DNA from: Alistipes sp. | GTDB lineage: Bacteria > Bacteroidota > Bacteroidia > Bacteroidales > Rikenellaceae | DNA length: 52,471 nucleotides | Direction: 5' to 3' | Assembly (NCBI GenBank): GCA_017451685.1 | Contig: JAFTNV010000001.1 | Location: forward strand, 1 to 52,471 | Part shown: positions 2,374-52,471 of the stretch, one piece after another | Layout of the letters: each line of letters starts with the position of its first letter | How positions within the stretch are numbered: the stretch's first letter is position 1 | Notes under the pieces: model-generated | Told to the model about the DNA's origin: nothing | The model's database searches: none | The model's input: only the letters and a program-made list of their open reading frames with translations | Made by a program: the position numbers and the translations under genes

Positions 2374-2393
2374 CATAATAAATATAGCATATC

Positions 2394-4827: not shown

Positions 4828-4855
4828 GGGGCTGCGCATGCGCAGCCCCTTTTTT
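4828..4855 (+). terminator. Perfect palindromic terminator after the LRR lipoprotein gene
   Basis: GGGGCTGCGCA and TGCGCAGCCCC form an 11-bp perfect stem followed by six Ts. It is 34 bases after the stop codon. Confidence 0.85.
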
Positions 4856-4894
4856 GTGCCCCCGCCCTCCCCACTGCTCACGCCCCCCGTTCTT

Positions 4895-5148
4895 GCGGGT
4901 ATATAAAAGTATACCCGCGTTGCTTTTGCTCACTCCGGCAATTCAAGATGCTTCGGCTTCGCTCAGCATGACAGGGTGCTCCACCCGCCACACTGCTCCC
5001 TTCGTTCTTGCGGGTATATAAAAGTATACCCGCGTTGCTTTTGTTCACTCCAGCAATTCAAGATGCTTCGGCTTCGCTCAGCATGACAGGGTGCTCCACC
5101 TGCCACACTGCTCCCTTCGTTCTTGCGGGTTACATTTTTGTAACCCGC
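4895..5148. repeat. 115-bp tandem repeat with GCGGG palindromes
   Basis: A 115-bp unit occurs at 4895-5009 and again at 5010-5124 with few differences, and the start of a third is at 5125. Each unit begins with a perfect hairpin (GCGGGTATA...TATACCCGC at 4895-4918 and 5010-5033; GCGGGTTAC...GTAACCCGC at 5125-5148). Each unit also carries the segment AGATGCTTCGGCTTCGCTC followed by AGCATGACA, a relative of the CATTCTGAGCG family found to the right. There is no coding potential beyond accidental ORFs. Confidence 0.8.
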
Positions 5149-9506: not shown

Positions 9507-10076
9507 ATGGAGATAGGTTCAGAGCAGAAAAACGAGGAGAAACGGGCCATACGCAAGGAGGTGCGCCGTCGTATCAAGGAGCTCGGCGCGGAGGTTATGG
9601 AGGCTGCTGCCGAGGAGATATTTCGCACTGTGGAACATACGGAGGCCTTTGTCCGTGCACGTAGCGTGGCGTTCTACGCAGCGATGAGTGACGAGGTGCC
9701 TACGGCCGTGGCGCTCGAGAGGTGGAGGGCGATAGGCAAGCATGTCGTCGTGCCACGTGTCGAGGGCGATATCATGCGCTTCTACGACTACGACCCCGAG
9801 CGTATGCAGTCGGGAGCCTTCGGCATTGCCGAGCCTGTGGGCGACAAGGAGTACCCAGCGGGCGATATAGACCTTATCATAGTGCCGGCACGTGCCTTCA
9901 CGCGCTCAGGTGTGCGCCTCGGTCGTGGTGGTGGCTTCTACGATAAGTATATGTCGCTGCCTGATTTCAGGGCGTATAAGATAGGCGTGGCGTTTGGCTG
10001 TCAGATATTTGAGGCGCTCACGTGCGACAAGCACGACATCCTCGTCGACGAGGTTATATCCTCGACGATAGCCTAA
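9507..10076 (+). CDS. 5-formyltetrahydrofolate cyclo-ligase
   Basis: 189 aa when started at ATG 9507. The frame is open further left to 9354, but the added 51 residues resemble nothing in the family and cross the sdhC promoter, so the shorter start is preferred. The enzyme converts 5-formyl-THF to 5,10-methenyl-THF with ATP. Family features are the N-terminal basic helix (KRAIRKEVRRR), DLIIVPARAFTRSGVRLGRG and the signature GRGGGFYDKYM. Its stop codon overlaps the stop of the convergent pdxB by three bases. Confidence 0.9.
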   Translation: MEIGSEQKNEEKRAIRKEVRRRIKELGAEVMEAAAEEIFRTVEHTEAFVRARSVAFYAAMSDEVPTAVALERWRAIGKHVVVPRVEGDIMRFYDYDPERMQSGAFGIAEPVGDKEYPAGDIDLIIVPARAFTRSGVRLGRGGGFYDKYMSLPDFRAYKIGVAFGCQIFEALTCDKHDILVDEVISSTIA

Positions 10077-11068
10077 AAATACTCCTCGCGATAGTTGTAG
10101 CCGTTGCGCATCGCCTCGAACTCCTCGGGGTGGCATTTTAGGCGTGCGCTCTCTGCGACGATGTCGCAATAATTAATGATGGTCGATGCCATCTCCTGCC
10201 AACCGATAGGCTGTGGGGTAGAGGGCACTACTTTATCTGGGTACCAGTCGGTTAGCGGAATGTCGAAATGCTTGGCAAAGGCTCTTACGACCATCGCCGT
10301 GGCGTTGGCCTTGCCTTGTAGCGAGTAGCCCGCAACGTGGGGCGTTGCAAGTGTAGCCTTTTGTAACACTTCGTGGTCTATATCGGGCTCTCCCTCCCAT
10401 ACGTCAAATATGTAGCGATGACCGCTATTCATCACCGCGTGGTTGTCCGCTACGCCTCCGCGCGAGGCATTGATAATCGTGGCGTTAGGCTTCATGCGGG
10501 CGATAGCCTCGGCATCAATCAGATGTCGCGTGGAGTCATCTAACGGGGTGTGCAGCGTGATGATGTCGGCCTCGGTGAGGATGCTCTCCAGTGACACGAA
10601 GTCACCACCCTCGCGCTCCATGCGCGGAGGGTCGCACGCCAACACTCTAAATCCCCATGCTCGGGCATACTCCGCAACGAGCGAGCCCACGTTGCCTACG
10701 CCCACCACACCGAGGGTGTAGTCTTTGGGCGAGAGATTATCCGTCGTGACGATATGGTGTAACGTGGCTGCCACCCACTGTAACACACCGCGCGCATTGC
10801 ACCCGGGGGCGCTATGTACGGCGATGCCGTGCTCACGGCAATACTCCTCGTCGATATGGTCGCGGCCGATGGTCGCGGTGGCTATGAACCTCAGGCGCGA
10901 GCCTTCCAAGAGTGCGCGACAGCAGCGCGTGCGTGTCCTAATAATAAGAGCGTCACAATCCCTAACTACGGCAGTGTCAATATCTTTGCCGCTGCAATAG
11001 ACGACCTCGACGTATGGCTCCAGCACCCCGCCGATAAATGGTATGGCTTTGTCGATTGCGACTTTCAT
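10073..11068 (-). CDS. pdxB: 4-phosphoerythronate dehydrogenase
   Basis: 331 aa. It is the second step of DXP-dependent pyridoxal phosphate synthesis: 4-phosphoerythronate to 2-oxo-3-hydroxy-4-phosphobutanoate. It is a D-2-hydroxyacid dehydrogenase with the NAD motif GVGNVGS at about 123-129. PdxB-specific text includes the N-terminal VAIDKAIPFIGG, IRTRTRCC, FIATATIGRDHID and NARGVLQWVA. It is shorter than E. coli PdxB (378 aa), mainly in the C-terminal dimerisation region. It is divergent from the ureohydrolase homologue and convergent with the folate gene. Confidence 0.9.
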   Translation of the reverse strand: MKVAIDKAIPFIGGVLEPYVEVVYCSGKDIDTAVVRDCDALIIRTRTRCCRALLEGSRLRFIATATIGRDHIDEEYCREHGIAVHSAPGCNARGVLQWVAATLHHIVTTDNLSPKDYTLGVVGVGNVGSLVAEYARAWGFRVLACDPPRMEREGGDFVSLESILTEADIITLHTPLDDSTRHLIDAEAIARMKPNATIINASRGGVADNHAVMNSGHRYIFDVWEGEPDIDHEVLQKATLATPHVAGYSLQGKANATAMVVRAFAKHFDIPLTDWYPDKVVPSTPQPIGWQEMASTIINYCDIVAESARLKCHPEEFEAMRNGYNYREEYF

Positions 11069-11091
11069 ATCCTCGTGGTATAAATTTTTAG

Positions 11092-11128
11092 CAAATGTAG
11101 GAAAAATGTTAAAATTTTACTAATTTTG
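11092..11128. promoter_or_regulatory. Divergent promoter pair between pdxB and the ureohydrolase gene
   Basis: Minus-strand TACATTTG (11092-11099) faces pdxB and plus-strand TAATTTTG (11121-11128) faces the gene at 11164. Both match TAnnTTTG. Neither has a clear -33 box. Confidence 0.4.
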
Positions 11129-11163
11129 CACGATTATTTTATCTGATAAAGGTATTAATAACG

Positions 11164-12228
11164 ATGGCTATGAGTGACAAGGAGTTTAATCCAAATGGGG
11201 CGATTCCGGATAACGGCAACTATTTCGGTATTCCGTTGAGTCCGGACGAGGCAGCGTTGGTTCTTATCTCGGCACCCTGGGATGCAACCACGGCAGTGCG
11301 CGCGGGTAGCTCGTACGCTCCCGATGCTATCATTGAGGCATCGCGTCGTGTGGATTTCTTCGAGCCCATGGCTCCCTATAGCTGGCGTAAGGGTATCGCC
11401 ACCGCGCCTATTGACTACTCGATGCAGGATATGTCGCACCGCCTGCGTGCCGATGCTGCGCGCGTCGTCAAGGTGCACGACGACCTCGGCTCGTCGCCCT
11501 TCGACCACCTCGTCTATGAGCGCAGCCTGCGCCGTGTGAATGAGGCCTCGGTGATGGTCAACGATAACGTGTACAAGCAGTCGAAGGAGTGGCTCGCAAA
11601 GGGTAAGATTGTAGGCCTTGTCGGTGGTGACCAGTCGGTAGCCTACGGTCATATACGTGCTGTGGCGGAGAGCCATGGCAAGATAGGCGTGCTGCATATC
11701 GACTCGAAGTGCGACCTCCGTGCTGCACATCAGGGCTTCGAGCACTCGCACGCCTCGGTCATGTATAACGTGTTACGCGATGTAGAGGGTGTTGCGAGCC
11801 TTGTTGCCGTCGGTGTTCGTGCCTTTAGTCCCGAGGAGTGGGAGAGGGCTGAGCGCGATAGCCGTGTGAAGCTCTTCACCGGACAGTCGATATGGTCGCG
11901 CCACTTCGAGGGTGTTAATTGGGCGACTATCGTAGATGAGATTCTGGCCGAGTTGCCCGAGTGCGTGTATGTGTCGCTGGATGTTGATGGTCTCACGATG
12001 GAATGCTCGCCACGCACGGGCTCGCTCGTTGCCGGTGGTCTGCGTCTGCCGGAGGTGGTATACCTCATGGGGAGAATTGTCGACTCGGGGCGTAGGATTG
12101 TGGGCTTCGACCTCACGGAGGTGGTGCCCGATATGGAGGATAAGACCGATGCCATGATTGCAGCACGTATGCTTTATAACGTGTGTTGCATGGCGTTGAA
12201 GAATCACCCTGCACCCGATGTGTTGTAG
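11164..12228 (+). CDS. Ureohydrolase (arginase/agmatinase) homologue with altered metal site
   Basis: 354 aa. The overall fold markers of the arginase superfamily are present: GLVGGDxSxxYG, GVLHID...DLR, SHASVMYNVL, SLDVDGL and GFDLTEVVP. However, two of the histidines that bind the Mn pair are replaced. GGDHS reads GGDQS (Q157), and DAHxD reads DSKCD (K182). In addition the usual DGLDP reads DGLTM (275-279). D180, D184, D273 and D275 remain. This suggests a protein that has lost hydrolase activity or uses a changed metal centre. It may be regulatory or bind guanidino compounds; no substrate can be assigned. It has its own promoter box and lies upstream of an antiporter gene. Confidence 0.8.
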   Translation: MAMSDKEFNPNGAIPDNGNYFGIPLSPDEAALVLISAPWDATTAVRAGSSYAPDAIIEASRRVDFFEPMAPYSWRKGIATAPIDYSMQDMSHRLRADAARVVKVHDDLGSSPFDHLVYERSLRRVNEASVMVNDNVYKQSKEWLAKGKIVGLVGGDQSVAYGHIRAVAESHGKIGVLHIDSKCDLRAAHQGFEHSHASVMYNVLRDVEGVASLVAVGVRAFSPEEWERAERDSRVKLFTGQSIWSRHFEGVNWATIVDEILAELPECVYVSLDVDGLTMECSPRTGSLVAGGLRLPEVVYLMGRIVDSGRRIVGFDLTEVVPDMEDKTDAMIAARMLYNVCCMALKNHPAPDVL

Positions 12229-13735: not shown

Positions 13736-14416
13736 ATGAAAAAGTCGCTAACAACAATCCTTATACTCCTGGTGCTCGTGTCGTGTGGCGGAAGGGCGAC
13801 GACCGTGAAGCCCGCGATGCAGACCAGCACCGACTCTATGTCGTATGTCATGGGTCTTAACCTCGGGCGTAACCTCGCGGGTATCGACTCGTTGCTTAAC
13901 ATCGACATGGTGTGCGAGGGCTTGCGCGATGCCTACAATGGCGAGCCTAAGTTCAACGACGAGGTAGCACGTGCTGCTTACCTTAAGTATATGAACTACG
14001 ATGTATACGAGCGTGCCAAGCAGTTCGAGAAGCAGTTTTTGGAGGACTTGCGCCGCCAGGATCGTAGGTTTGTGGCTACGTACTCGGGCCTGACGTATAA
14101 GATTGCCGAGATTGGCGACATGAAGAGCGTTATCCGCAATAACCGTGACACCATACGCTTGCGCTATCGTGCTCTCGACCAGGCGGGAAATGTCGTCGAC
14201 ACGACATACTATCGTGGCGATACGTTGCGTTTGGCTGTGGGTAGCTTGCCTCGTGGTGTCATCGAGGCAGCGAAGCTCATCGGCCGTGGCGGACACATGG
14301 AGGCGTGGTTGCCCTCGTCGCTGGCCTATGGCTCGGCAGGCTGCGACTCGCTGAACGTGGCACCCAACACCATGTTGTACTACGAGCTGTGGCTCATTGA
14401 TATTGAGAAGAGATAA
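13736..14416 (+). CDS. FKBP-type peptidyl-prolyl isomerase lipoprotein
   Basis: 226 aa. A lipoprotein signal ends at LVLVSC (Cys17). Residues about 30-115 correspond to the helical FKBP N-terminal dimerisation domain (SMSYVMGLNLGRNL). The FKBP fold follows at about 135-222, ending in GGHMEAWLPSSLAYGSAG...MLYYELWLIDI. It probably sits in the periplasm or outer membrane and helps folding of envelope proteins. Several catalytic-pocket aromatics typical of active FKBPs are not obvious, so activity is uncertain. It is followed 22 bases later by a second FKBP lipoprotein gene. Confidence 0.85.
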   Translation: MKKSLTTILILLVLVSCGGRATTVKPAMQTSTDSMSYVMGLNLGRNLAGIDSLLNIDMVCEGLRDAYNGEPKFNDEVARAAYLKYMNYDVYERAKQFEKQFLEDLRRQDRRFVATYSGLTYKIAEIGDMKSVIRNNRDTIRLRYRALDQAGNVVDTTYYRGDTLRLAVGSLPRGVIEAAKLIGRGGHMEAWLPSSLAYGSAGCDSLNVAPNTMLYYELWLIDIEKR

Positions 14417-14438
14417 TCATTAACAATAACGTATTATT

Positions 14439-15716
14439 ATGAAGAAAATCCTTATTGCTGCCTTGTCGCTCGTCACCCTTGTATCGTGTGGCGGTGGCGA
14501 GAAGCAGATGTACTTCGACAACGACCTGTCGAGAGTCTACAACGATGCTACTGCCGAGTTTGACACTCTGTCGTATGCTGTGGGTATGAACGTGGGCCTC
14601 GGCCTCTCGCTCCAGAATGCCTACCTCGAGCTACAGCCCGAGGCTATCATCGCCTCGATTGATGCTGTGCTCAGCCAGCCGACTGCGGACTACGACATCA
14701 TCACCGAGAATGGCAAGCTCATGAAGCGCTATGCCCAGGAGCTGTCGCGCCCCTACATGATGGCTAAGCGTATGCAGGCCTTCGCTAAGACCGATAAGCC
14801 CGATACGATGACACTCCCTGCGGTGTATAACGAGGAGTTTACGCGCGAGAAGGTCACCGAGATGTATGGCCGCGATATTGCAAGCTACATCATGCGCCTG
14901 GCCCTCCCCGTAAATACGTACTGGGTGTATAAGGCCATCGAGGAGTCGGATGCTATCGAGAATGTCGAGGAGATAGATGCGAAGATGCCTCTTAAGGGTA
15001 ACGACGTACGTAATGTCATGTCGAAGTATGCCAAGGAGCAGTGGGCAGTATACAACCGTGAGCGTACGGCTGCATGGCTCAAGGATATTGCTGCGAAGGA
15101 GGATGTTCACATGATGGTTGTTGAGGATGATACGCTCTACTATCGTGTAGATGTTGCGGGCCATGGTACTCGCCCCCAGAATATCCTCGATACGGTATCT
15201 TTCAGCTACGAGGTGTACACGCGCGCAGGTCGCCCTGTGGAGTCTACCGCGAAGCGCCTCGAGAGCCTGAATGACCACCTTGAGATGACACGTACCAAGA
15301 TGCTCTTTGCCGACTCTATGCAGCGTGCTATGCAGATTAAGCAGATTGAGGAGCAGATTGAGAATGTCAAGAACCTCCGCATACCGTTGAGCAACTCGAT
15401 GATTAAGGGTGCACAGTACGCCATGAAGCATGTCAGCGAGGGTGGAGAGATTACCTTCTGGATGCCAGCAGCGTTGGCCTATGGCGAGCGCGGTAATCGT
15501 GAGGTGGGCCCCAACGATGGTATTGTCATGTCGGTGAAGCTTAATAGCGTTACGACGGTAGACCCCGAGGCTGTTGCCGAGGCGGAAGAGGCTCTCAAGG
15601 CCGGCGAGTCGAAGGTGAAGGTTATCCCCACCTCGCGCCCCGTGGATTTTAAGAAGCCCATAGGCAAGAAGCCTGTTATTATGCCCTCGAAGCCGGCACA
15701 GCCCGAGCAGAAGTAA
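14439..15716 (+). CDS. Long FKBP-type lipoprotein with an interrupted isomerase domain
   Basis: 425 aa. Its signal peptide ends at VTLVSC (Cys17). Residues 40-225 resemble an enlarged FKBP N-terminal domain (FDTLSYAVGMNVGLGLSL). The FKBP core begins at DTVSFSYEVYTRAGRPVES (251-269) and resumes at MIKGAQYAMKHVSEGGEITF (321-340), ending with AALAYGERG and a C-terminal strand near 370. The roughly 45 residues between are a charged, probably helical insertion (KQIEEQIENVKNLR). The last 50 residues form an acidic helix and a Lys/Pro-rich tail. It is probably a periplasmic chaperone made together with the shorter paralogue. Confidence 0.8.
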   Translation: MKKILIAALSLVTLVSCGGGEKQMYFDNDLSRVYNDATAEFDTLSYAVGMNVGLGLSLQNAYLELQPEAIIASIDAVLSQPTADYDIITENGKLMKRYAQELSRPYMMAKRMQAFAKTDKPDTMTLPAVYNEEFTREKVTEMYGRDIASYIMRLALPVNTYWVYKAIEESDAIENVEEIDAKMPLKGNDVRNVMSKYAKEQWAVYNRERTAAWLKDIAAKEDVHMMVVEDDTLYYRVDVAGHGTRPQNILDTVSFSYEVYTRAGRPVESTAKRLESLNDHLEMTRTKMLFADSMQRAMQIKQIEEQIENVKNLRIPLSNSMIKGAQYAMKHVSEGGEITFWMPAALAYGERGNREVGPNDGIVMSVKLNSVTTVDPEAVAEAEEALKAGESKVKVIPTSRPVDFKKPIGKKPVIMPSKPAQPEQK

Positions 15717-15735
15717 CACGCTTCCTATATACGAG

Positions 15736-15767
15736 ATAACCCTCGCCAATGGCGAGGGTTATTTGTT
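15736..15767 (+). terminator. Terminator after the FKBP pair
   Basis: ATAACCCTCGCC and GGCGAGGGTTAT form a perfect 12-bp stem with an AAT loop, followed by TTGTTT. Confidence 0.85.
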
Positions 15768-15801
15768 TGAGATGCAATCTCGTATCTCTACCTGCGGAGC
15801 C

Positions 15802-16083
15802 TTACTCGCACACAGCGCTAAGGTCAGCAAAAAGGCCTGCGAAGCTCTCAACCATGTCGCGACGCAAAGCTGCGTAGTGCTTCTTCACGAGTGAACGGTT
15901 CTTGGGCTCTGCGGGGTTGTTAGCCTTGCAGTAGAGGGCGTTACGCAACTCTACGCTCTTCTGCATGAGGTCGACAATCTTCTCCTCCTTGTTGGGCTGT
16001 ACGAATGCAGCCATCTCGCAATCAAAGACAAACTCCTCCAAGCGGTAGTCAATCTCCTTCTTAAGTACTCTTAAATTTGCCAT
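15802..16083 (-). CDS. Conserved small helical protein, function unknown
   Basis: 93 aa. It is mostly charged and alpha-helical with no signal peptide or membrane segment. It begins with MANLRVLKKEIDYRLEEFVF and contains KEEKIVDLMQKSVELRNAL and VKKHYAALRRDMVESFAGL. I recall similar roughly 90-aa cytosolic proteins in many Bacteroidales, but I cannot name a function. It has its own TACCTTTG promoter box and no operon partner. Codon use is like its neighbours, so it belongs to the core genome. Confidence 0.8.
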   Translation of the reverse strand: MANLRVLKKEIDYRLEEFVFDCEMAAFVQPNKEEKIVDLMQKSVELRNALYCKANNPAEPKNRSLVKKHYAALRRDMVESFAGLFADLSAVCE

Positions 16084-16148
16084 AGTTATAATTGGTTTTT
16101 AGTTGTTATCTCTCTGTTATCTGTGCCGTGGTGAAACTACGACGATGA

Positions 16149-16180
16149 CAAAGGTACAAAATCCAATTCTTTTATGCAAA
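16149..16180 (-). promoter_or_regulatory. Promoter of the 93-aa protein gene
   Basis: TACCTTTG on the minus strand (16149-16156) with a TTTG at about 16174-16178 upstream gives the expected spacing of about 19 bases. Confidence 0.5.
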
Positions 16181-16205
16181 TTTTTGGTCGTTTATTCTTT
16201 GAATG

Positions 16206-17015
16206 TCACTCCGCAAAGTCGATGATTATGCCATCCCACTCCTCGACCATCTTGTGGCGTTTATGGTGCTTGCCGTGCTTGTGGTGTTTATGATGTTTGC
16301 TGTGCTTGTCATCCTCTACGACCTCCTCCACGATGATTACCTCGCGGGGTTCGGGGCTATACTCACGGCTGTATACCTCGTGATCCGTGCTGTAGGCTAT
16401 CGTCACCACAGCGCGGCGCATCTCCGGGAGGACATCCGTTTTGAGGTATTGCCACGCATCGCCCTCGCGCTTTAGTCGTCGGTCGACGGTCATAGGCGCC
16501 TCGTTGGCATTCACGATGTTGACGATGTCGCTGCGGTTCTTTAGCTTCGACTCCTCGATAGGCTTTGTCGTTGCACTCCACGGCTCGACATGCGAGGTGA
16601 CCGTCACGTTGTAGCCCGTAAGGCCGTAGCGCTCGCTAAGCATGGCGCTCAGCTTCTCGGCACGCTCGCGCGCCAACTCCGCGTTGAATGGCGTGGTGCC
16701 ATCGGGCGAGGCGTAGCCCGCAATCGTTATCGAAGACACATGGCGCAGGGTGTCGCTCTGAAGTTCGGCGAAGAAGCGGTCGAGACGCTCGAGCTCGATG
16801 TCGTTATGCTCATACTCGGGTGCTGTCGTTGCTGAGTTTATGGCATAGTGAAGCTCATAGTTCGCCTTATGCAGCGTGTCGTCCTCGATGATATAGCGGC
16901 GCACGATGTAGTCGCCATCGCGCCACTCGGACATAAGGTGGCGCTTGCCCTGCTGCGCTACACAGATGTAAGGTAGCGCTACGAGCAGGATGATAGATGT
17001 AAATAGCCTTTTCAT
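16206..17015 (-). CDS. Exported OmpA-like domain protein with His/Lys-rich tail
   Basis: 269 aa. A signal peptide ends near CVAQQ (residues 17-22). The sequence VSSITIAGYASPDGTTPFNAELARERAEKLSAML, read in two parts (93-110 and 111-126), is an OmpA-family peptidoglycan-binding strand and helix, in the variant found in Bacteroidales envelope proteins. There is no transmembrane barrel, so it is probably periplasmic or surface-anchored. Residues 237-255 are almost entirely His and Lys (alternating KHHKHHKHGK), which could bind metal ions. The protein ends in an acidic stretch. Its partner and role are unknown. It is transcribed alone, divergent from ispE. Confidence 0.7.
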   Translation of the reverse strand: MKRLFTSIILLVALPYICVAQQGKRHLMSEWRDGDYIVRRYIIEDDTLHKANYELHYAINSATTAPEYEHNDIELERLDRFFAELQSDTLRHVSSITIAGYASPDGTTPFNAELARERAEKLSAMLSERYGLTGYNVTVTSHVEPWSATTKPIEESKLKNRSDIVNIVNANEAPMTVDRRLKREGDAWQYLKTDVLPEMRRAVVTIAYSTDHEVYSREYSPEPREVIIVEEVVEDDKHSKHHKHHKHGKHHKRHKMVEEWDGIIIDFAE

Positions 17016-45433: not shown

Positions 45434-46221
45434 TGGCAGAGGTACGCGCAAAGAAGGCTCTCGGGCAACACTTCCTTACTGACCTAAACATAGCCCGCAA
45501 GATTGCCATGTCACTCTCGGGAGGCACGGCAGAGACCCCCGACAAGGTGTTGGAGGTGGGCTGTGGCATGGGTGTGCTCACGCAGTTCCTGCTACAGAGA
45601 GAGGATGTTGTCGCCTATGGCGCGGAGATTGATGGCGAGTCGGTGGAATATCTCCACGCTCACTATCCCGCATTTGCGGAGCGATTGACCGAGGGCGACT
45701 TTCTGAAGATGGACTTACGCACCATGTATGGCGATAGACTCAAAATTATCGGTAACTTCCCGTATAACATATCGTCGCAGATATTCTTTAAGGTGCTCGA
45801 AAATAGGGATATAGTCCCCGAGTGCGTGGGCATGATACAGCGTGAGGTAGCCGTGCGCCTTGCCGAGCCCCCGGGCTCGAAGGAGTATGGCATACTCAGT
45901 GTCCTGCTACAGGCGTGGTACGATATCGAATACCTCTTTACGGTGGGCGAGAAGGTGTTTAACCCGCCACCAAAGGTTAAGAGTGCCGTTGTGCGTCTCG
46001 TGCGTAACAATGTCGAGCGGTTGGAGTGCGACGAGACTCTATTTATCAAGGTCGTGAAGGCCTCGTTTGGCCAGCGACGTAAGATGTTGCGCAACTCGTT
46101 GAAGGCGGCCTTTGGTAACTTCGGCGGCAGGGAGCATCGCTTCTTTACGATGCGTGCCGAGCAGTTGTCGGTTGCCGACTTTGTGGAACTTACGCAGTGG
46201 GTGGCAGAGAATAGGGAGTAG
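45433..46221 (+). CDS. rsmA: 16S rRNA dimethyladenosine transferase
   Basis: 262 aa. It dimethylates A1518 and A1519 of 16S rRNA. Signs are KKALGQHFLTDLNIARKI at the start, the SAM motif VLEVGCGMGVLTQFLL and the catalytic GNFPYNISSQIFFKVLE. FNPPPKVKSAVVRL and FGQRRKMLRNSLK are also typical. It overlaps recQ by one base (TAATG), which suggests coupled translation. It is followed by a terminator hairpin that overlaps the umuD promoter. Confidence 0.95.
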   Translation: MAEVRAKKALGQHFLTDLNIARKIAMSLSGGTAETPDKVLEVGCGMGVLTQFLLQREDVVAYGAEIDGESVEYLHAHYPAFAERLTEGDFLKMDLRTMYGDRLKIIGNFPYNISSQIFFKVLENRDIVPECVGMIQREVAVRLAEPPGSKEYGILSVLLQAWYDIEYLFTVGEKVFNPPPKVKSAVVRLVRNNVERLECDETLFIKVVKASFGQRRKMLRNSLKAAFGNFGGREHRFFTMRAEQLSVADFVELTQWVAENRE

Positions 46222-46237
46222 CGACATCCCGAAATCA

Positions 46238-46277
46238 TAACTTTGGCGCGTGAGGTAGTTCCTGATGCGCCTTTTTA
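46238..46277 (+). promoter_or_regulatory. umuD promoter box overlapping the rsmA terminator
   Basis: TAACTTTG (46238-46245) matches TAnnTTTG. Its last G begins an 11-bp hairpin with one mismatch (GGCGC...GCGCC, 46245-46271) followed by five Ts. The hairpin can end rsmA transcripts and would also form in the leader of umuD transcripts started here. I see no recognisable LexA operator, but Bacteroidetes operators differ from the E. coli box. Confidence 0.4.
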
Positions 46278-46287
46278 GACTCATGAA

Positions 46288-46716
46288 ATGGAAAAGTTTG
46301 TACCATACAGCATAGGCCCGGAGGAGAGGTATGAGGGCACGTTGCTTGGCGACGTTAAGGCGGGATTTCCCTCGCCCGCGGAGGATGTGCGCGAGAAGTT
46401 AGACCTCGTTAAGTTGCTCGTTAGACATAAGGCCTCGACCTTCTTCTTCCGCGTAAGTGGCGTGTCGATGGTCGATGCCAATATGGACGAGGGCGATATT
46501 ATCATCGTGGATAGAGCCATAGACCCATATAACAACTGTAAGGCCGTGTGTTTTATCGATGGTGAGTATACCGTCAAGCGCGTTGAGATAGGGGAGCATG
46601 GCATCCGCCTTATGCCTGCCAACGAGAATAACACCAACTACAAACCTATCGAGGTTACACCAGAAAATAACTTTATCATCTGGGGCGTTGTCACATACAC
46701 TATCAAGAAGATGTAA
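46288..46716 (+). CDS. umuD: UmuD-like SOS mutagenesis protein
   Basis: 142 aa S24 peptidase-fold protein. After RecA-stimulated self-cleavage it serves as the partner of the UmuC polymerase. The expected cleavage bond is in VKAGFPSP (A25-G26). The serine nucleophile is in RVSGVSMVDANMDEGD (S60) and the general-base lysine in EYTVKRVE (K97). No DNA-binding N-terminal domain is present, which distinguishes it from LexA. The umuC GTG begins one base after its stop codon. Confidence 0.92.
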   Translation: MEKFVPYSIGPEERYEGTLLGDVKAGFPSPAEDVREKLDLVKLLVRHKASTFFFRVSGVSMVDANMDEGDIIIVDRAIDPYNNCKAVCFIDGEYTVKRVEIGEHGIRLMPANENNTNYKPIEVTPENNFIIWGVVTYTIKKM

Positions 46717-46717
46717 C

Positions 46718-47983
46718 GTGTTTGCTCTTGCCGACTGCAACAACTTCTACGCCTCGTGTGAGCGTGTCTTTCGCCCCGACCTTCAGGGGAGACCCATCAT
46801 CGTGCTCTCGAGTAACGACGGCTGCGCCATAGCGCGTAGCAACGAGGCTAAAGCCCTCGGCATCAAGATGGGTGCGCCCTACTTCAAGATTAGAGATATT
46901 GTTGAGCGACACAACATTGCCGTCTTTTCGGGCAATATGGCGCTCTATGGCGACATGTCGCAGCGTGTACGCTGGGTATTGGAAGGGTATGCCCCAAGTA
47001 TCGAGGTATACTCGATTGACGAGGCCTTCCTCGACCTGCGTGGCATGGAGGGCATCGACTTCGACAGCTATGCCAAGGAGATTTCGCACGAGTGCTGGCG
47101 GCAGACATCCATACCCGTGTCCGTGGGCATAGCACCCACAAAGACACTCGCAAAGATAGCCTCGAAGCTGTGCAAGCAGTACCCGAAGCTAAAAGGCGGT
47201 TGTTATATGCACCGTCCCGAAGATATCGAGAAGGTGTTGCGTAAGTTCCCCATAGAGGATGTGTGGGGCATAGGTCGTCGCTCCGTGCCTAAACTAAAGA
47301 CGAGGGGCATAAATACGGCTTATGAGTTCACTCGACTATCAGAGGGTGTCGTGCATAATATGTTTGGTATAACGGGCGTAAGAACTTGGAAAGAGTTACA
47401 AGGCATACCTTGCATAGAGTTTGAGGATGGCTTCGAGGCGCGGCAGTCGATATGCGTTTCGCGTAGTTTCGCTAAGGAGATATACGACGTTGCAGAACTG
47501 TCGGAGCAGGTGGCTAACTTCGCTGCTACGGTCGCCGAGAAACTGCGCAAGCAGGGCTCCGTGACTGCGGAGATGAATATCTTTGCCTTTACCAACCGCT
47601 TCAAGGAGTCGGCGCCACAGGCCTTCGGCACTCAGCTCGTTCACTTCGAGGTGGCAACAAACGACCAGCGCACCATCGTCACACGTGCCGTGGCAGCGCT
47701 GCGCGAGCTATATCGTCGAGGCTTCGGATATAAGAAGGCGGGCGTGGTCGCTACACATATCCTCCCCGCTGATAGTGTCATGCACTCGCTCTTCGATGAT
47801 GGCGAGGCTGTTGCGCGCGAACATAAACTCTCGGCCGTTGTCGATGCCGTAAACCGCGCCCATGGCCGTGGCGCCGTGCGCCTTGCGGTGCAGGGGAACG
47901 GTAAAATTAAGAGTGCCAGCGAAAGCCAATCGCCGCACTACACTACGCGCTGGAGCGATATCCCATCTGTCACAGTGAAGTAG
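46718..47983 (+). CDS. umuC: Y-family DNA polymerase UmuC
   Basis: 421 aa starting at GTG 46718 (VFALADCNNFYASCERVF). The frame is open further left but overlaps umuD, so the GTG next to the umuD stop is preferred. It is the translesion polymerase of the SOS response. The palm residues are in ALADCNNFYAS and YSIDEAFLDL. GIAPTKTLAKIASK and DVWGIGRRSVPKL (the helix-hairpin-helix) follow. The C-terminal little-finger domain and DUF4113-like end (TRWSDIPSV) are present. Confidence 0.93.
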   Translation: MFALADCNNFYASCERVFRPDLQGRPIIVLSSNDGCAIARSNEAKALGIKMGAPYFKIRDIVERHNIAVFSGNMALYGDMSQRVRWVLEGYAPSIEVYSIDEAFLDLRGMEGIDFDSYAKEISHECWRQTSIPVSVGIAPTKTLAKIASKLCKQYPKLKGGCYMHRPEDIEKVLRKFPIEDVWGIGRRSVPKLKTRGINTAYEFTRLSEGVVHNMFGITGVRTWKELQGIPCIEFEDGFEARQSICVSRSFAKEIYDVAELSEQVANFAATVAEKLRKQGSVTAEMNIFAFTNRFKESAPQAFGTQLVHFEVATNDQRTIVTRAVAALRELYRRGFGYKKAGVVATHILPADSVMHSLFDDGEAVAREHKLSAVVDAVNRAHGRGAVRLAVQGNGKIKSASESQSPHYTTRWSDIPSVTVK

Positions 47984-48054
47984 CCCCTCTTAGGCACGAT
48001 TGTTGGCGTGTATAGGTTTTAACAATGCGGCTATAAGAAAGTGTGATTGAAATC

Positions 48055-48087
48055 TTGTTGTAAGTGTGAAAATTATTGCTATCTTTG
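48055..48087 (+). promoter_or_regulatory. Strong promoter of the rubredoxin gene
   Basis: TTGTTG (48055-48060) and TATCTTTG (48080-48087) are separated by 19 bases, close to the Bacteroidetes consensus. Transcription would start near 48094, about 40 bases before the ATG. Confidence 0.65.
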
Positions 48088-48132
48088 CAGTGTGAAAAAT
48101 AAATAATAATAACTAATAAAAACTAAAAGATT

Positions 48133-48291
48133 ATGGATAAGTATACATGTGTACCTTGTGGCTGGGAGTACGATCCCGCAATTGGCGACCCCGAGAATGG
48201 CATTCCCGCCGGCACACCCTTTGAGGAGTTGCCCGACGACTGGACATGCCCCGTATGTGGCGTAGGCAAGGAGTTGTTCGAGAAGGAGTAG
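48133..48291 (+). CDS. Rubredoxin
   Basis: 52 aa. It is a small electron carrier with one iron held by four cysteines, here C6 and C9 ([12 protein letters not shown]) and C39 and C42 ([13 protein letters not shown]). The central [18 protein letters not shown] is characteristic. In anaerobes it typically passes electrons to rubrerythrin or superoxide reductase in oxygen defence; no such partner is adjacent. The second gene, at 48328, is probably cotranscribed. Confidence 0.93.
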
Positions 48292-48327
48292 TAAAGGATA
48301 AAAGGTTATTATAAAACGATTTAGACT

Positions 48328-48507
48328 ATGGAAACAAAAGATAAGGTATTGGCAACGATGAAGGAGGCGGGTGAGCCCCTGAATGCAGGCAAGATTGCGG
48401 AGCTCAGCGGCATCGACCGCAAGGAGGTGGACAAGGCGATGAAGCAGCTCAAGGATGAGGGCGCCATCGTGTCGCCCGTGCGCTGCAAGTGGGAGCCCGC
48501 GAAATAA
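48328..48507 (+). CDS. Small winged-helix protein
   Basis: 59 aa. The sequence [20 protein letters not shown] is followed by [20 protein letters not shown] and [17 protein letters not shown]. This is a compact helix-turn-helix with a short wing, as in the DNA-binding domains of MarR/ArsR-like proteins but without any effector domain. I recall similar 60-aa proteins next to rubredoxin in anaerobes, but their target is unknown. It could regulate the rubredoxin operon. A good terminator follows. Confidence 0.75.
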
Positions 48508-48523
48508 TCAAGCATACTTCTTT

Positions 48524-48555
48524 AGGCATCTGCATTTGCGGGTGCCTTTTTTTTT
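48524..48555 (+). terminator. Terminator of the rubredoxin operon
   Basis: AGGCATC pairs with GGTGCCT (one G:T pair) and is followed by eight or more Ts. Confidence 0.85.
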
Positions 48556-48585
48556 ACAGTGATTCTAACTTAAAACCTACACTAT

Positions 48586-48966
48586 ATGAAGTGATTATTT
48601 ACACTCTCATCTCTCGTGGCTCTTATCTTCTCGCTGTCGGCATGCGAGAAGGATACCAAGTCCCTGGAGATTGAGGGTGCCACGATCACTTCGTCGAGAG
48701 AGCTTACGGGCTATGATAGCAGCATCGTGACACGCACACTTACGGCCGAGACGGTGAGGGTGAAGGGTAACATTGCGGAGTTCGATTGCGACGATGTCAA
48801 GATGACGACGATAGATGTAACACATTGTGCAACATTGCGTTCGCTCAACGTATGCGATAACCTGTTTACGACGCTCGACGTGTCGTCATGTAAGGCGTTG
48901 GAGTGGCTCGGATGTTGCCATCGCCTAGGCGAAGAACTGAAGCCTGATAGAGGGTTAGAACATTAA
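48586..48966 (+). pseudogene. Damaged lipoprotein gene with an LRR-like segment
   Basis: ATG AAG at 48586 is followed directly by an in-frame TGA, after which the frame continues as a textbook lipoprotein signal: LFTLSSLVALIFSLSAC, then EKDTKSLEIEG. A later GTG (48616) would lack most of the signal peptide. The body has the repetitive pattern TTIDVTHCATLRSLNVCDN and LFTTLDVSSCKALEWLGC, as in the many-repeat lipoproteins of Bacteroidales. It then diverges and ends after about 110 residues, with no further repeats. The likely reading is a remnant with a nonsense codon 3 and a truncated 3' end. Readthrough or GTG initiation cannot be ruled out. Confidence 0.65.
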
Positions 48967-48971
48967 TAGTA

Positions 48972-49003
48972 GCGATAAGGAGGTGCGATCATCCCCTTAT
49001 CGC
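48972..49003. terminator. Bidirectional hairpin before the accessory region
   Basis: GCGATAAGG and CCTTATCGC form a perfect 9-bp stem between convergent genes. T-runs are short on both sides. Confidence 0.55.
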
Positions 49004-49013
49004 TTGTTAGTAA

Positions 49014-50123
49014 CTATTCACTTGCTACTACGTGCAGGGCTGCTCGGGTGAACTCCTCGGGAAAGTGGGTTTTGAGGTAGGCGGTAAGATAGACCAAGCG
49101 GGTAAACTCTGCCATCACAGCCTTCGGAAAAGACCAACTGCCCTCATTTATAAGTTTACGAAGTAACCCCTTATGCTTACTGAATCGGCGGCGGTGATTA
49201 TTATATTCCTGCTTTTTGCGAGCAGTCAGCACCTTACGAAACGCCTCCGCCTCGCTTGGAGTATAACCAACCAATTTGGCGATAGCATATACCTGTTCAT
49301 TGTAGAGTATATCGCCACATGTTTCACTCAATATCATCTCAATACCTGGCGTAAAACGAGGCTCCCACGCAGCACCATATTTGCGTGATATATAGATGTG
49401 ATTAGTCGGATAGTCTATAATGCTCGCTGTACAAAGCGGGATTAAATCTTCAAAATGGGGTTTGGCTTGCGTTAGATATTCCTGCAAAACCGTTCCATCA
49501 TTACATCCATACACACCCGTTAAGTCATTTGAGCGCAACAAGGTGTAGAAAGTCTCTCGGTCATCAAATGGTATGTAGTCAAAATTGACTTTATCGCTAA
49601 AATATCCCAATAACTGTGCAGTGCGCTGGCTCGGATAAATTATCAACGCAGGGGCGTCATCATTGAGTTCTCGCTCGCCTAAACGCTCCCTATCCTCATC
49701 AAACTTTAGGTTCATAATCTCTGTTTGAATCTGCGATTTTGTAGCATTGGTAGCCAAACCAATCTCAACGAAGTGGGGCTTGTCGGTCTGCATAAAGCGG
49801 TTAAAATCAAGTTCCAAACGAATAGGGTCAACTTCCGTAATTCCTAACGCATAGCACACCGCTGATGCGTGGGCAAGAGTACGATAAGGCATAATATAGT
49901 ATCCGCTATCATAAACCACTCGCCACACGAAATAGAGATACTCCATATACCCATCTACTTGCTCGAATGTGGCAATTTCCATCTCTATTCTCGCCTTAAT
50001 ATCGGGCGTTATATTCCCTCTCCAACGGTCGATAGCCCCTCCCCAAATCTCAGTAGAGATAAACTCTTCTTTAACATTCCCATCAAAAGATAATACCGAA
50101 TGAAATCTAATACACTCAATCAT
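49014..50123 (-). CDS. Truncated DnaE-like protein without polymerase catalytic residues
   Basis: 369 aa from ATG 50123 (MIECIRFHSV); a TTG five codons upstream is less likely. Four blocks follow the order of the bacterial replicative polymerase (PolIII alpha) core. Residues 60-111 match the start of the palm (MEYLYFVWRVVYDSGYYIMP, YALGITEVDPIRLELDFNRF). Residues 183-230 match the fingers (DYIPFDDRETFYTLLRSNDL, TGVYGC..., KPHFEDLIPL). Residues 262-306 match the EQV helix (GDILYNEQVYAIAKLVGYTP). Residues 328-362 match the final LTAYLKTHFPEEF segment. The GRGS loop reads PYRTLAHAS and the PDxDxDF motif reads PHFVEIG, so the palm aspartates are gone. The PHP domain, beta-clamp motif and OB fold are absent. 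It is an intact frame, so a structural or DNA-binding role is more likely than a decayed polymerase. Confidence 0.7.
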   Translation of the reverse strand: MIECIRFHSVLSFDGNVKEEFISTEIWGGAIDRWRGNITPDIKARIEMEIATFEQVDGYMEYLYFVWRVVYDSGYYIMPYRTLAHASAVCYALGITEVDPIRLELDFNRFMQTDKPHFVEIGLATNATKSQIQTEIMNLKFDEDRERLGERELNDDAPALIIYPSQRTAQLLGYFSDKVNFDYIPFDDRETFYTLLRSNDLTGVYGCNDGTVLQEYLTQAKPHFEDLIPLCTASIIDYPTNHIYISRKYGAAWEPRFTPGIEMILSETCGDILYNEQVYAIAKLVGYTPSEAEAFRKVLTARKKQEYNNHRRRFSKHKGLLRKLINEGSWSFPKAVMAEFTRLVYLTAYLKTHFPEEFTRAALHVVASE

Positions 50124-50125
50124 AA

Positions 50126-51073
50126 CTAATCCCACCAATTATGCATATGAAACTCCAAATACTTAAACAAAATACAATACGCTTTGTTGTAACGCACTTT
50201 CTGCATATCGCCCTGGTCATAATAGCCTTTATGGTCGTGAAAGATTTTGAATCTATCGGCATTGCGCAGGTTTACCCGATAAGGTAAATGCTTGCAATCA
50301 CCACTCTCGTTACCATCTTTGAGGACTATTTCTATGAGGCTGCAGGCTGTATGCATTGTACTTACCACATAACGTCCATTTTGACAATGTCCGAACTGCT
50401 CCCAATATTCAATCATTCGCTCGATTTTGAATTTCAAAATCTGGAAGATATCCGACCAATCGTAATCGCCACCCCACGGCAATTCGCGCATAATCATATC
50501 GTGTTTTTGCCTATTGTGCGCTTCCGCATAGGCATTCCAATCCTCACGCTTCATTCCGTGGACTGGCTCGTTGCCCCAATTTTTATCCCCCTCTCCCCAC
50601 TCTTTATCGAGGCGTTCAATTTCGGTTTGTCGTTCCTCATCGGTCATTGCCTCAAAGCGGGCACGGGCCTCCTCCCTCTCGCATACCTCTTTGGTAAGCG
50701 GACAGTGATTTGCCAATTTGAAATAGTAATCCTCGCCCTCCTCTTCGCGTTCTTTTACCTCATATGCTGCACACTCTGCCTGCCACTTATCTTCCAACGG
50801 TTGCAGGCGGGCAATGGTAGCAAGGTCTGCCAATCTCTCATCAAGTTTACGAAAACAGCAGTAATAGATTTCGCGAGGATGGCGAGAGCTCCACTCTTCG
50901 CCTATGATATACGCCTGCTCCAACTGCTTGATAATGCGTTTTGCTCGGTTTGTTCCGATACAAAATTTATCACTGATAGCCGACGCCGACACCGTCTGTC
51001 GCTCAACCACATAATGCGCCACCTCATCAAAGAGAGGGTCGCGGCTGTTCCAATCAAAGGTTTTATTATTCAT
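50126..51073 (-). CDS. FtsK-gamma domain protein with a phage-like C-terminal domain
   Basis: 315 aa. Residues 11-70 are an FtsK/SpoIIIE gamma-type winged helix: RDPLFDEVAHYVVERQTVSA, SDKFCIGTNRAKRIIKQLEQ, HPREIYY. The translocase motor is absent. Residues about 75-170 are charged and helical (coiled-coil-like). The end, from about 205, contains DWSDIFQILKFKIERMIEYW, STMHTACSLIEIVL and the terminal EFHMHNWWD. That pattern recalls an uncharacterised domain common in phage and prophage proteins. In FtsK the gamma domain reads polarity sequences (KOPS), so sequence-specific DNA binding is inferred. Its TAG is followed two bases later by the DnaE-like ATG, so they are probably coupled. Confidence 0.7.
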   Translation of the reverse strand: MNNKTFDWNSRDPLFDEVAHYVVERQTVSASAISDKFCIGTNRAKRIIKQLEQAYIIGEEWSSRHPREIYYCCFRKLDERLADLATIARLQPLEDKWQAECAAYEVKEREEEGEDYYFKLANHCPLTKEVCEREEARARFEAMTDEERQTEIERLDKEWGEGDKNWGNEPVHGMKREDWNAYAEAHNRQKHDMIMRELPWGGDYDWSDIFQILKFKIERMIEYWEQFGHCQNGRYVVSTMHTACSLIEIVLKDGNESGDCKHLPYRVNLRNADRFKIFHDHKGYYDQGDMQKVRYNKAYCILFKYLEFHMHNWWD

Positions 51074-51098
51074 TTGGTTATAGTATTAATTTTTTCGG

Positions 51099-51106
51099 CA
51101 AAACTA
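51099..51106 (-). promoter_or_regulatory. Possible -7 box for the 315-aa gene
   Basis: TAGTTTTG on the minus strand matches TAnnTTTG. A TTTTG lies upstream at 51121-51125, but only 14 bases away. Confidence 0.3.
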
Positions 51107-51129
51107 CTGCCTTACACAGACAAAAGCCG

Positions 51130-51408
51130 TCAGAGTGATTCCAATTCTTGTTTGAGTTGGGCAATTTTCTCAGCACCTGCTTCGAGGTTGTAGTGAAACA
51201 ATCCTGCAAATGAGCAGTTGCAGAGCATTTCGATATCGGCTTCGGTTATTGGGCGAGGAAAGCCGCAGTCGGCGTATGGCTGCATCTTCCGCCACACGGC
51301 ACTAATGAGCGGCTCGCCCGTGCGGATTTCGAGCCGAGGCTCACGCTGCGCAAAATAGTAGAATAGCATCTCACGGTGGAGCGCCTCGCAAAGTTCGTCT
51401 TTTGTCAT
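51130..51408 (-). CDS. 92-aa unknown protein in the FtsK-gamma cassette
   Basis: It starts MTKDELCEALHREMLFYYFA. It is soluble and mostly helical, with an aromatic-rich N-terminus, RTGEPLISAVWRKMQPYADC in the middle, and an acidic C-terminal helix (EKIAQLKQELESL). I do not recognise the family. It lies between the two FtsK-gamma genes, with a strong terminator just upstream and a promoter-like box at 51427, so it may begin a second transcript that continues into the 315-aa gene. Confidence 0.6.
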   Translation of the reverse strand: MTKDELCEALHREMLFYYFAQREPRLEIRTGEPLISAVWRKMQPYADCGFPRPITEADIEMLCNCSFAGLFHYNLEAGAEKIAQLKQELESL

Positions 51409-51426
51409 AAATCATTGATTATACGA

Positions 51427-51434
51427 CAAAAGTA
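51427..51434 (-). promoter_or_regulatory. Possible -7 box for the 92-aa gene
   Basis: TACTTTTG on the minus strand, 19 bases before the ATG at 51408. It overlaps the U-tract of the terminator of the preceding transcript. Confidence 0.3.
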
Positions 51435-51468
51435 AAACCCCTCTCTGCCACATAAGGTCAGAGAGGGG
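51431..51468 (-). terminator. Terminator between the two halves of the cassette
   Basis: On the minus strand CCCCTCTCTG pairs perfectly with CAGAGAGGGG (10 bp) and is followed by TTTTACTTTT. It ends the transcript of the UDG-like and 84-aa genes. Confidence 0.85.
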
Positions 51469-51491
51469 GGGTGTTTGTGTATATTAGTTAG

Positions 51492-51746
51492 CTATTTCTG
51501 CCACTCGGCGAGTTTTTGTTCCAACTCCTCAGCGGTGCAGAGTACGGCGCGAGGTTTGCAGCGCACAGCCTCACCAACAATACCAGCTGCCTCCAACTGC
51601 TCGAGGATGCGTCTGGAACGAATGAAACCAATCTCAAATTTACGCTCCAAAGGGCTCCCCCAAGCCATTCTATTGTTCTCTACAACAAATCTTGCTACCT
51701 CGACAAACAGAGGATCAGCCTGCGAAAAATCAAATTTCTGCTCCAT
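51492..51746 (-). CDS. Stand-alone FtsK-gamma winged-helix protein
   Basis: 84 aa, almost entirely an FtsK/SpoIIIE gamma domain. Residues 10-28 read ADPLFVEVARFVVENNRMA, 33-57 include LERKFEIGFIRSRRILEQLE and AAGIVG, and 64-70 KPRAVLC closes the wing. Chromosomal FtsK carries this fold at the end of an 800-aa translocase; here it is free. It could bind the host's own FtsK polarity sites, or act as a repressor. Its start overlaps the end of the UDG-like gene by 17 bases, so the two are translationally linked. Confidence 0.8.
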   Translation of the reverse strand: MEQKFDFSQADPLFVEVARFVVENNRMAWGSPLERKFEIGFIRSRRILEQLEAAGIVGEAVRCKPRAVLCTAEELEQKLAEWQK

Positions 51747-52471
51747 AGGTTTTGGATTTATGATATTCGGGATGTATCCTTAAAAACGCCTTCAAATCTG
51801 CCATCATTTGCTCGTAGTACAACTCAATATCTTTGTGTGATTTAGGATAGGATGGATGATAACTATCTATCACAATCTTTTGGGTTGAAGGAGAAAAATA
51901 TACCCAGCCAGCATCCGAAAACTTTTCAAGGTTTGGCAAGTAGGTATTCTTTACAAAATCTTTGATTATTCCGCCGCCACCACAGCAGAGTATAATGTCG
52001 GCATCGTACATCGCAATTTGCTCATGGAGTAAATCGGCATATCTTTCGATATGAGCCTTTAATACCTCATCTCTGATAGAACTCTCCCCAATCTCTTTTT
52101 TACAATTCACACGCGCAATTGGGGCAGAGGTGTAGTGCTCACGCAACTCATCCCAACAGGGCGTTTGGTTGTATTCTACAATCTCGCCACCTTGCACCGC
52201 ATTGAGCAGAGCATACGACCACAATGTTAAGTTTCGATACATTCCTGCTGCCGGCTCTTTCCTATTCCCAATGTTGTTTTTCAGAGCAGCCTCCTCGCGT
52301 ATATCCTCTTGACCGCCGTTACGGGTGGTGTCTTTGGTTAGAATCAGCAAACGACAAGGTGCGTTATCCCACAGTTCGGTTTCATTGCCCGAGTGGCGTA
52401 TCCAACAGCCATTTAAGAGTTCAAGTTCCCCACGAAATAGGATACCGTCATAGGCAAAATCCTCCTCCGGA
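51730..52471 (-). CDS. Uracil-DNA-glycosylase-like protein (5' end outside window)
   Basis: 246 residues are visible; the frame stays open to the right edge, so the start lies outside. An internal TTG at 52350 is not the true start because the upstream frame is coding-like (FAYDGILFRGELELLNGCWI). Features recalling the UDG superfamily are LLILTKDTTRNGGQEDIRE, PIARVNCKKEIGESS (the AxVNLKK strand), QIAMYDADIILCCGGGG, and a late SYHPSYP in place of the HPS motif. I cannot say whether it excises uracil. It may be a nucleic-acid-binding relative. It opens the accessory cassette as far as visible. Confidence 0.6.
   Translation of the reverse strand, partial: PEEDFAYDGILFRGELELLNGCWIRHSGNETELWDNAPCRLLILTKDTTRNGGQEDIREEAALKNNIGNRKEPAAGMYRNLTLWSYALLNAVQGGEIVEYNQTPCWDELREHYTSAPIARVNCKKEIGESSIRDEVLKAHIERYADLLHEQIAMYDADIILCCGGGGIIKDFVKNTYLPNLEKFSDAGWVYFSPSTQKIVIDSYHPSYPKSHKDIELYYEQMMADLKAFLRIHPEYHKSKTYGAEI

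Follow-up and report, generated by a model that had tools for sequence, protein, structure and literature searches.

Why do small genes derived from chromosome-processing enzymes stand together at one end of an Alistipes contig? We addressed this question in a stretch of 52,471 nucleotides (GenBank assembly GCA_017451685.1, contig JAFTNV010000001.1; hereafter the window), which is contig 2 of a 1.59 Mb assembly that is 80.6% complete. As the original prediction had described, four leftward genes and one small open reading frame (ORF) lie there in a tract of lower guanine-plus-cytosine (GC) content: the ORF check confirmed five ORFs on the minus strand in 49014-52471, and the cassette has a GC content of 0.44-0.45, against 0.49-0.59 across 5-48 kb. 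Because the contig stops at base 52471, the locus is cut in the window. We consider it possible, with a probability just below one half (about 0.48), that these genes form the 3' part of an anti-phage locus of Rikenellaceae, probably mobile and with exchangeable modules, which would be controlled by a WYL regulator and whose 3' module would recognise DNA or replication complexes non-catalytically. From the contig end leftward, the order is a gene resembling those of uracil-DNA glycosylases (UDG-like, 5' end missing), a free FtsK-gamma gene (gamma-84), a fragment of topoisomerase IV subunit A (ORF92), a longer FtsK-gamma gene (gamma-315) and a relative of DNA polymerase III alpha (DnaE-like):

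51730..52471, minus strand: UDG-superfamily-like protein, 246 residues visible, cut by the contig end with loss of about 26 N-terminal residues (PF03167 1.8e-4, under cut-off)
51492..51746, minus strand: free FtsK-gamma (winged-helix) protein of 84 residues (PF09397 7.4e-16)
51408..51491, minus strand: module-junction repeat, a hairpin (CCCCTCTCTG...CAGAGAGGGG) and then a TAnnTTTG motif (15 copies in 12 of 26 loci)
51130..51408, minus strand: topoisomerase IV subunit A fragment of 92 residues, ORF92 (NCBIfam PRK12758 3.3e-4)
51074..51129, minus strand: intergenic gap containing a TAnnTTTG that begins at 51106 (motif scan)
50126..51073, minus strand: gamma-315, an FtsK-gamma domain (residues 10-70) with a tail of about 240 residues (PF09397 3.9e-14)
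49014..50123, minus strand: DnaE-like protein of 369 residues, palm segment and fingers only (Pfam and alignments)
48971..49004, minus strand: inverted repeat just 3' of the DnaE-like gene, a possible terminator (read in the sequence; absent from the terminator scan list)

Another low-GC stretch (0.43-0.46) lies toward the opposite contig end, at 2001-5000.

Modular architecture and exchange at shared ends

A scan of contigs identified 14 loci, 12 of them in metagenome-assembled genomes (MAGs) labelled Alistipes, Tidjanibacter, Rikenellaceae, Bacteroidales and, once, Flavobacteriales; two distant matches in Firmicutes were left off the map. We mapped sixteen loci first and ten further loci around relatives of the WYL gene, and searched 200 related genomes (the window's own, 120 of the same genus and 79 of the same order). 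The first gene calling missed or misoriented some genes (the gamma genes of L014 and L048, the small ORF before the WYL gene); the counts of gamma domains and ORF92 come from tblastn. Counts out of 13 omit L008, L009 and L051, which are cut directly upstream of the DnaE-like gene. The 14 loci are MAG-derived and the other genomes are mostly fragmented, with breaks and mis-joins possible; the same gene order recurs in independent assemblies.

Comparison of these loci establishes a modular architecture. A WYL regulator (PF13280 5.6e-16), usually preceded by a small ORF whose product seems, by eye, to be membrane-bound, heads nine of the ten loci that, among the first sixteen, reach far enough upstream. 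After it come a swapped effector (UDG-like, GmrSD, Mrr or PD-(D/E)XK), mixed modules (PLD, SprT, AAA, a mini FtsK motor, the topoisomerase fragment) and, at the 3' end, the FtsK-gamma and DnaE-like genes. The gamma gene is directly 5' of the DnaE-like gene in 10 of the 13 loci (the window, L004, L007, L011, L012, L013, L014, L015, L048 and L050; in L013 both are in one frame, possibly through an assembly error). ORF92 is found in 11 of 13 (all but L004 and L013). BLAST clustering assigns a mini FtsK motor to five of the 13 (L004, L010, L011, L013, L050); PF01580 is present in four of these, and L050_14 has no Pfam match. The description of FtsK-gamma domains with no motor is therefore correct for the window, where Pfam detects no motor domain in either protein, and misleading for the locus, since five of the 13, by this clustering, carry the motor as a separate gene. 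L010 has a truncated DnaE-like gene of the window's type behind gamma-315, then a mini motor, then an intact copy of a second type.

The set also travels together across genomes, as a comparison of neighbourhoods was expected to reveal if it formed a unit. Among the 200 genomes, a short DnaE-like gene occurs in at least 8 (one is a 62-residue piece at a contig end), and all six genomes with ORF92 are among these. Two or more FtsK-gamma domains occur in nine genomes (G000, G001, G020, G033, G048, G086, G106, G112, G156), including all six that bear a WYL gene of at least 67% identity (G001, G020, G033, G048, G086, G112) and the window's own, for which no full-length FtsK was detected. In G106 and G156 the extra gamma occurs without a WYL gene at that identity, and G031 has ORF92 and a DnaE-like gene with no gamma match at all.

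Judging from the alignments, modules are recombined where their ends are shared and at a recurring junction of hairpin and promoter. The window and L004 are 95.8% identical over the UDG-like and gamma-84 genes and 88.9% identical over the gamma-315 and DnaE-like genes; between these matching flanks, ORF92 of the window takes the position that a mini FtsK motor holds in L004. Synonymous divergence (dS) between the two loci is 0.089 for the UDG-like gene, 0.166 for gamma-84, 0.387 for gamma-315 and 0.478 for the DnaE-like gene. The junction occurs between differing gene pairs among the 26 loci searched; the window's copy folds at -28.2 kcal/mol (z -5.6), has its TAnnTTTG at 51434, and its hairpin is not in the list of the terminator scan. 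The two DnaE-like types, about 31% identical to each other, share an end at which recombination is indicated: over their last 22 codons the proportion of synonymous differences (pS) is 0.54 between types (35 pairs) and 0.54 within them, whereas the bodies are saturated between types (pS 0.77, proportion of nonsynonymous differences 0.52; 12 pairs). In L050, the start of the gamma gene is of the window's type and the DnaE-like gene of the second.

The genes are under purifying selection. The ratio of nonsynonymous to synonymous divergence (dN/dS) is 0.05-0.27 in all pairs of six families, with dS up to 1.3 (0.08-0.25 for gamma-84, 0.05-0.20 for ORF92, 0.10-0.16 for the DnaE-like gene), and they are thus not debris.

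The cassette had been expected to be expressed as a coupled set, which is borne out for two pairs only, UDG-like/gamma-84 (17-nucleotide overlap) and gamma-315/DnaE-like (2-nucleotide gap). Each of the other two gaps contains TAnnTTTG, which we take to be the Bacteroidetes -7 element, and one copy stands after a strong hairpin, so that the cassette probably comprises multiple transcription units. The motif occurs three times in 3600 bases, against 1.2 expected from a mononucleotide shuffle, and two of the three lie within these gaps. In L004, a long inverted repeat (arms around GCAATACAAGGAGCCTGCA) was noticed by eye after the DnaE-like gene, at about 7730-7910.

Origin of the parts

The origin of most parts can be traced by homology. 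Pfam finds PF17657 (fingers, 1.9e-14) and PF07733 (1e-13) in the DnaE-like protein, and a profile of 12 DnaE-like sequences, the window's included, retrieves a solved polymerase III alpha at 2e-39; the PHP, thumb, clamp-binding and tau-binding parts have no match in the 369 residues. Identity to DnaE of related genomes is about 30-35% in the matched parts. We aligned both types with 13 full-length Bacteroidales DnaE to examine the catalytic site. The catalytic DxDxD is replaced by E-G-A in the window protein and by E-E-L in the second type, and GPGRGS by MPYRTL and IAGRGV, respectively (FAGRGV in L015). The aspartate of KMDFLGL, a position bordering a gap in which FLGL is lost, is K in the window's sequence, immediately preceded by a D, and D in the second type. 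On this alignment, the prediction of a polymerase III alpha relative without catalytic aspartates holds: the window protein lacks the residues expected of an active enzyme. The second type may retain one of the three.

The small ORF of the five-gene cassette had been labelled unknown. The ORF is present and the label can be replaced, since ORF92 is colinear over its whole length with approximately residues 376-481 of the full-length host topoisomerase IV subunit A (identity about 30%) and is by this alignment a fragment of it; Pfam gave no match and a profile search of the PDB chance matches only. ORF92 is about 90% identical everywhere. Recent transfer was considered and ruled out, because its dS (0.31-0.73) resembles that of its neighbours; it is merely constrained.

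Both FtsK-gamma proteins pass the curated cut-off of PF09397 (30.6 bits), gamma-84 with 58.1 bits and gamma-315 with 52.5 bits. Gamma is a DNA-reading domain in FtsK, and the original prediction named FtsK polarity sites (KOPS-type sites) as one thing that the module might recognise. What is presumably the recognition helix of gamma-84 is unlike host FtsK in sequence. The last 120 residues of gamma-315 weakly resemble the phage family phrog_8579 (0.65 for the window protein; 0.0043, 0.041 and 0.17 for three orthologues); the segment encoded at 50126-50500 aligns to nearly the whole length of this family, whose function is unassigned.

The UDG-like protein did match PF03167, as its proposed resemblance to uracil-DNA glycosylases requires, but weakly, with E-values of 1.8e-4, 3.8e-4 and 4.3e-3 in three orthologues, all under the curated cut-off. 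Its orthologues in L004, L050 and L011 are 96%, 95% and 88% identical and 270-272 residues long where complete. A YHPS motif was noticed by eye, and the PDB profile search with this family gave chance matches only and no UDG structure. The more distant L097 has a WYL gene, a UDG-like gene and a 214-residue homologue of the gamma-315 tail without gamma. At 13768-16868 of that stretch (locus turned, WYL on the plus strand), two proteins that look UDG-like by eye stand around this homologue, one with PF03167 at just 0.044 and the other with no match.

Defence, mobility and other readings

We infer a defence role from the neighbouring genes. Pfam detects in the cargo GmrSD_N (3e-34, 1e-30, 5e-26 and 2e-17), Mrr_cat (3e-9), PDDEXK_4 (1e-9), PLDc_2 (2e-12), AAA_21 (4e-15), SprT-like (5e-4, under cut-off, and 9e-6), a KaiC-type ATPase (1.5e-6) and an FtsK motor (2e-15). 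PADLOC matches seven of nine cargo proteins of sister loci (HEC-06 8e-54, HEC-05 3e-20, PDC-S26 2e-23, PDC-S02 2e-9, AriA 6e-16, DrmC 1e-7 and, for the mini motor, mad8 2e-15), with no match for L014_09 and L012_08. We tallied the first cargo gene in 11 loci whose WYL protein is at least about 67% identical. It is of restriction type (GmrSD, Mrr or PD-(D/E)XK) in five (L006, L048, L015, L013 and L012; after a 93-residue ORF in L013 and as the fourth ORF in L012), UDG-like by Pfam in three (L004, L011, L050, all sub-threshold) and UDG-like by eye in two (L094, L095, no Pfam match). The strongest functional argument, drawn by analogy, is that UDG-like genes appear to stand where other loci have modification-dependent restriction enzymes. 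A palindrome lies at about -335 from the WYL start in four of the seven loci scanned, as TACACTGTC-N7-GACAGTGTA in L048 and L014 and as ACTGAC-N7-GTCAGT in L015 and L013. According to excerpts of PMC9122601, WYL repressors of the BrxR family bind inverted repeats upstream of defence islands, a pattern that the palindrome fits. Two further observations concern this region. L050 (reverse complement 4320-4954) has a second, broken WYL copy between two UDG-like genes, in 89-94% identical pieces and two frames, resembling an insertion scar. An AAA+ ATPase of 550-569 residues follows the WYL and UDG-like genes in L095 (7065-8717; PF00004 3.6e-23) and L097 (17178-18887, turned; named by eye).

In the mechanism that we favour, the WYL protein would keep the locus off until infection, and the gene adjoining it would encode a DNA-damaging effector, here a glycosylase of the UDG superfamily that might excise modified bases of phage DNA. 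Glycosylases of this superfamily with such an activity, Brig1 and Brig3, are described in the accessible parts of PMC11078745 and PMC13160076. The 3' module, FtsK-gamma (sometimes with the separate mini motor or the topoisomerase fragment) and then the dead DnaE-like protein, would consist of captured chromosome-processing parts that bind DNA or replication complexes without catalysis and direct the effectors to invader DNA in active replication or translocation. Non-catalytic recognition is suggested because gamma reads DNA, its helix is unlike the host's, and polymerase catalysis has been lost in a protein that is nevertheless constrained. Defence systems that captured cellular FtsK have been published (PMC10853773, sections consulted); the combination of gamma, DnaE and topoisomerase IV was not described in the literature searched, of which coverage is incomplete. 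If this is correct, effectors as well as sensors would be traded at defined recombination junctions in an island under WYL control, and dead replication enzymes would gain a role in immunity. The locus would offer a small candidate set (the 369-residue dead polymerase, the 92-residue topoisomerase fragment and the 84-residue FtsK-gamma), and the several UDG-like lineages may be new anti-phage glycosylases.

The original prediction of a DNA-surveillance or anti-phage module thus gains from the sister loci, with their WYL, GmrSD, Mrr, PD-(D/E)XK, PLD and AAA_21 genes, and not from the window, where PADLOC has no credible match to any of the five proteins (best GajB, 0.026). Several other points weigh against a WYL-controlled defence locus with an effector and a gamma/DnaE-like module. 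The PADLOC matches of the AAA, PLD and motor proteins are to broad enzyme classes; the first cargo gene of L014, the remaining one of the 11, matches no family tried; and the palindrome was not found in three of the seven loci scanned (L004, L006, L012). Because the contig ends, no WYL gene can be seen in the window itself. L007, with 8.7 kb visible upstream, has ORF92, gamma-315 and the DnaE-like gene but no WYL gene, and before ORF92 a gene for a YhcG-type PD-(D/E)XK nuclease (1.5e-49) and an F12 gene. The DnaE-like gene lacks an upstream gamma in L005 and L006, and the intact copy in L010 is preceded by the motor instead. The three UDG-like orthologues score 22.0, 21.0 and 17.6 bits against a PF03167 cut-off of 24.3, and the AlphaFold2 models of the UDG-like and DnaE-like proteins are unusable (predicted local distance difference test scores of 35 and 40).

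The other function first proposed, a piece of a prophage or conjugative element, divides into two. The prophage part finds no support: scans of viral contigs with the DnaE-like, 92-residue and UDG-like proteins gave no relative, and among the phage and plasmid matches listed, all that carry a gene name are DNA polymerases (80% of the query is covered in a single place by none of 540 plasmid records and one of 544 phage records). The mobile-element part is favoured by a tyrosine integrase upstream in some loci, and an integrative element is plausible on these sequences. L014 has such an integrase (L014_04, PF00589 3.9e-13) and G020 one that is 24% identical; in G020, the copies of a 19-bp direct repeat flank a 12.1-kb stretch that begins left of the integrase and extends 126 bp beyond the DnaE-like gene. 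L014 belongs to genome G112, where the stretch searched has no direct repeat of 13 bases or more, and a tRNA-Phe adjoins the integrase. The gene rsmA adjoins the window locus and is on a different contig in all nine relatives that bear the locus, whole or in part. An empty site could not be demonstrated, because homology between the window and six relatives ends right after rsmA (46205-46220) and only two of the seven stretches that follow it resemble each other. The interval 46221-49013 of the window is also variable, with UmuDC-like genes, a rubredoxin-like protein, a small helix-turn-helix protein and a 116-residue ORF.

An integrative element could explain the parts differently, with the FtsK motor, gamma, DnaE-like and topoisomerase IV-like proteins serving its own replication, partition or resolution and the defence genes as passengers. 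The integrases, the repeat in G020 and the location of rsmA on other contigs fit this, but the polymerase is dead and tiny, the tRNA-Phe in G112 comes without a bounding repeat, and contig breaks weaken the rsmA argument. Nor did the Pfam-scanned cargo include a relaxase, partition or replication-initiator family, families that were not searched for systematically. We regard this explanation as unlikely.

The fragments might instead be integrated decoys, pieces of host DnaE, topoisomerase IV subunit A and FtsK that bait phage inhibitors or hijackers, with engagement triggering the effectors or the WYL switch. Catalysis-free fragments of three essential host enzymes, two divergent DnaE-like types with swapped modules that would fit an arms race, and the weak likeness of the gamma-315 tail to a phage family would suit such baits. 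An identity of about 30-35% to relatives' DnaE is, however, distant for a bait mimicking the current host enzyme, and selection on the DnaE-like gene is purifying overall, which leaves decoys rather improbable. We are similarly doubtful of the broader proposal of a defence locus that collects polymerase III alpha, topoisomerase IV and FtsK fragments as interchangeable sensors or decoys coupled to interchangeable DNA-destroying effectors, which would amount to a bacterial integrated-decoy immune system with swappable baits.

ImuB/DnaE2 cassettes are the model for a DNA-repair or mutagenesis module, in which UDG-like base excision and a DnaE2-like accessory would act near umuDC. UDG-like and DnaE-like genes do occur side by side, and both the window (46288-47983) and L050 (reverse complement 9555-11251) have, beyond the DnaE-like gene, genes that by eye look like umuD and umuC, with the two UmuC-like proteins in one BLAST cluster. 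Such genes are, however, found in just two of 16 mapped stretches, and in opposite relative orientations (convergent in the window, codirectional in L050); catalytic residues are gone from the polymerase, no clamp-binding part of it is matched, and the UDG-like gene is swapped for restriction enzymes, all of which makes a repair module very unlikely. Decaying, functionless remnants of truncated housekeeping genes are scarcely credible: all parts are fragments of large proteins and L010 has a truncated DnaE-like copy, but the dN/dS ratios of six families largely contradict decay, and gene order is conserved across many species.

Comparison with known systems

The locus resembles several known systems in part. 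With DNA polymerase III alpha, the DnaE-like protein shares palm and fingers homology; it differs in being about one-third as long, without the catalytic aspartates or any match to the remaining parts. BrxR-type islands, as excerpted from PMC9122601, place a WYL regulator beside restriction or defence genes behind an inverted repeat, as some sister loci of the window do. Their repeat has 11-bp arms and a 5-bp spacer, whereas here the arms are 9 bp with a 7-nucleotide spacer in two loci and 6 bp in two others; the proteins searched include no BREX-type core, and the FtsK-gamma and dead DnaE-like genes recur at the 3' end. Brig1 and Brig3 are comparable to the window's UDG-like protein by putative superfamily and presumed defence context. 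In the consulted parts of PMC11078745 and PMC13160076, Brig1 alone gave immunity to T4, whereas the UDG-like gene belongs to a locus of exchangeable effectors. The systems that captured HerA or FtsK (DndH and relatives) combine segregation-derived FtsK-type translocases with nucleases and winged helix-turn-helix proteins in the portions of PMC10853773 consulted, of which the main text does not use the term "FtsK gamma". The Rikenellaceae loci also place FtsK parts beside nucleases. The pairing of motor and nuclease is absent from the window, which has no motor, and across the loci the motor and gamma are separate, swappable genes, joined here with a dead polymerase III alpha and a topoisomerase IV fragment.

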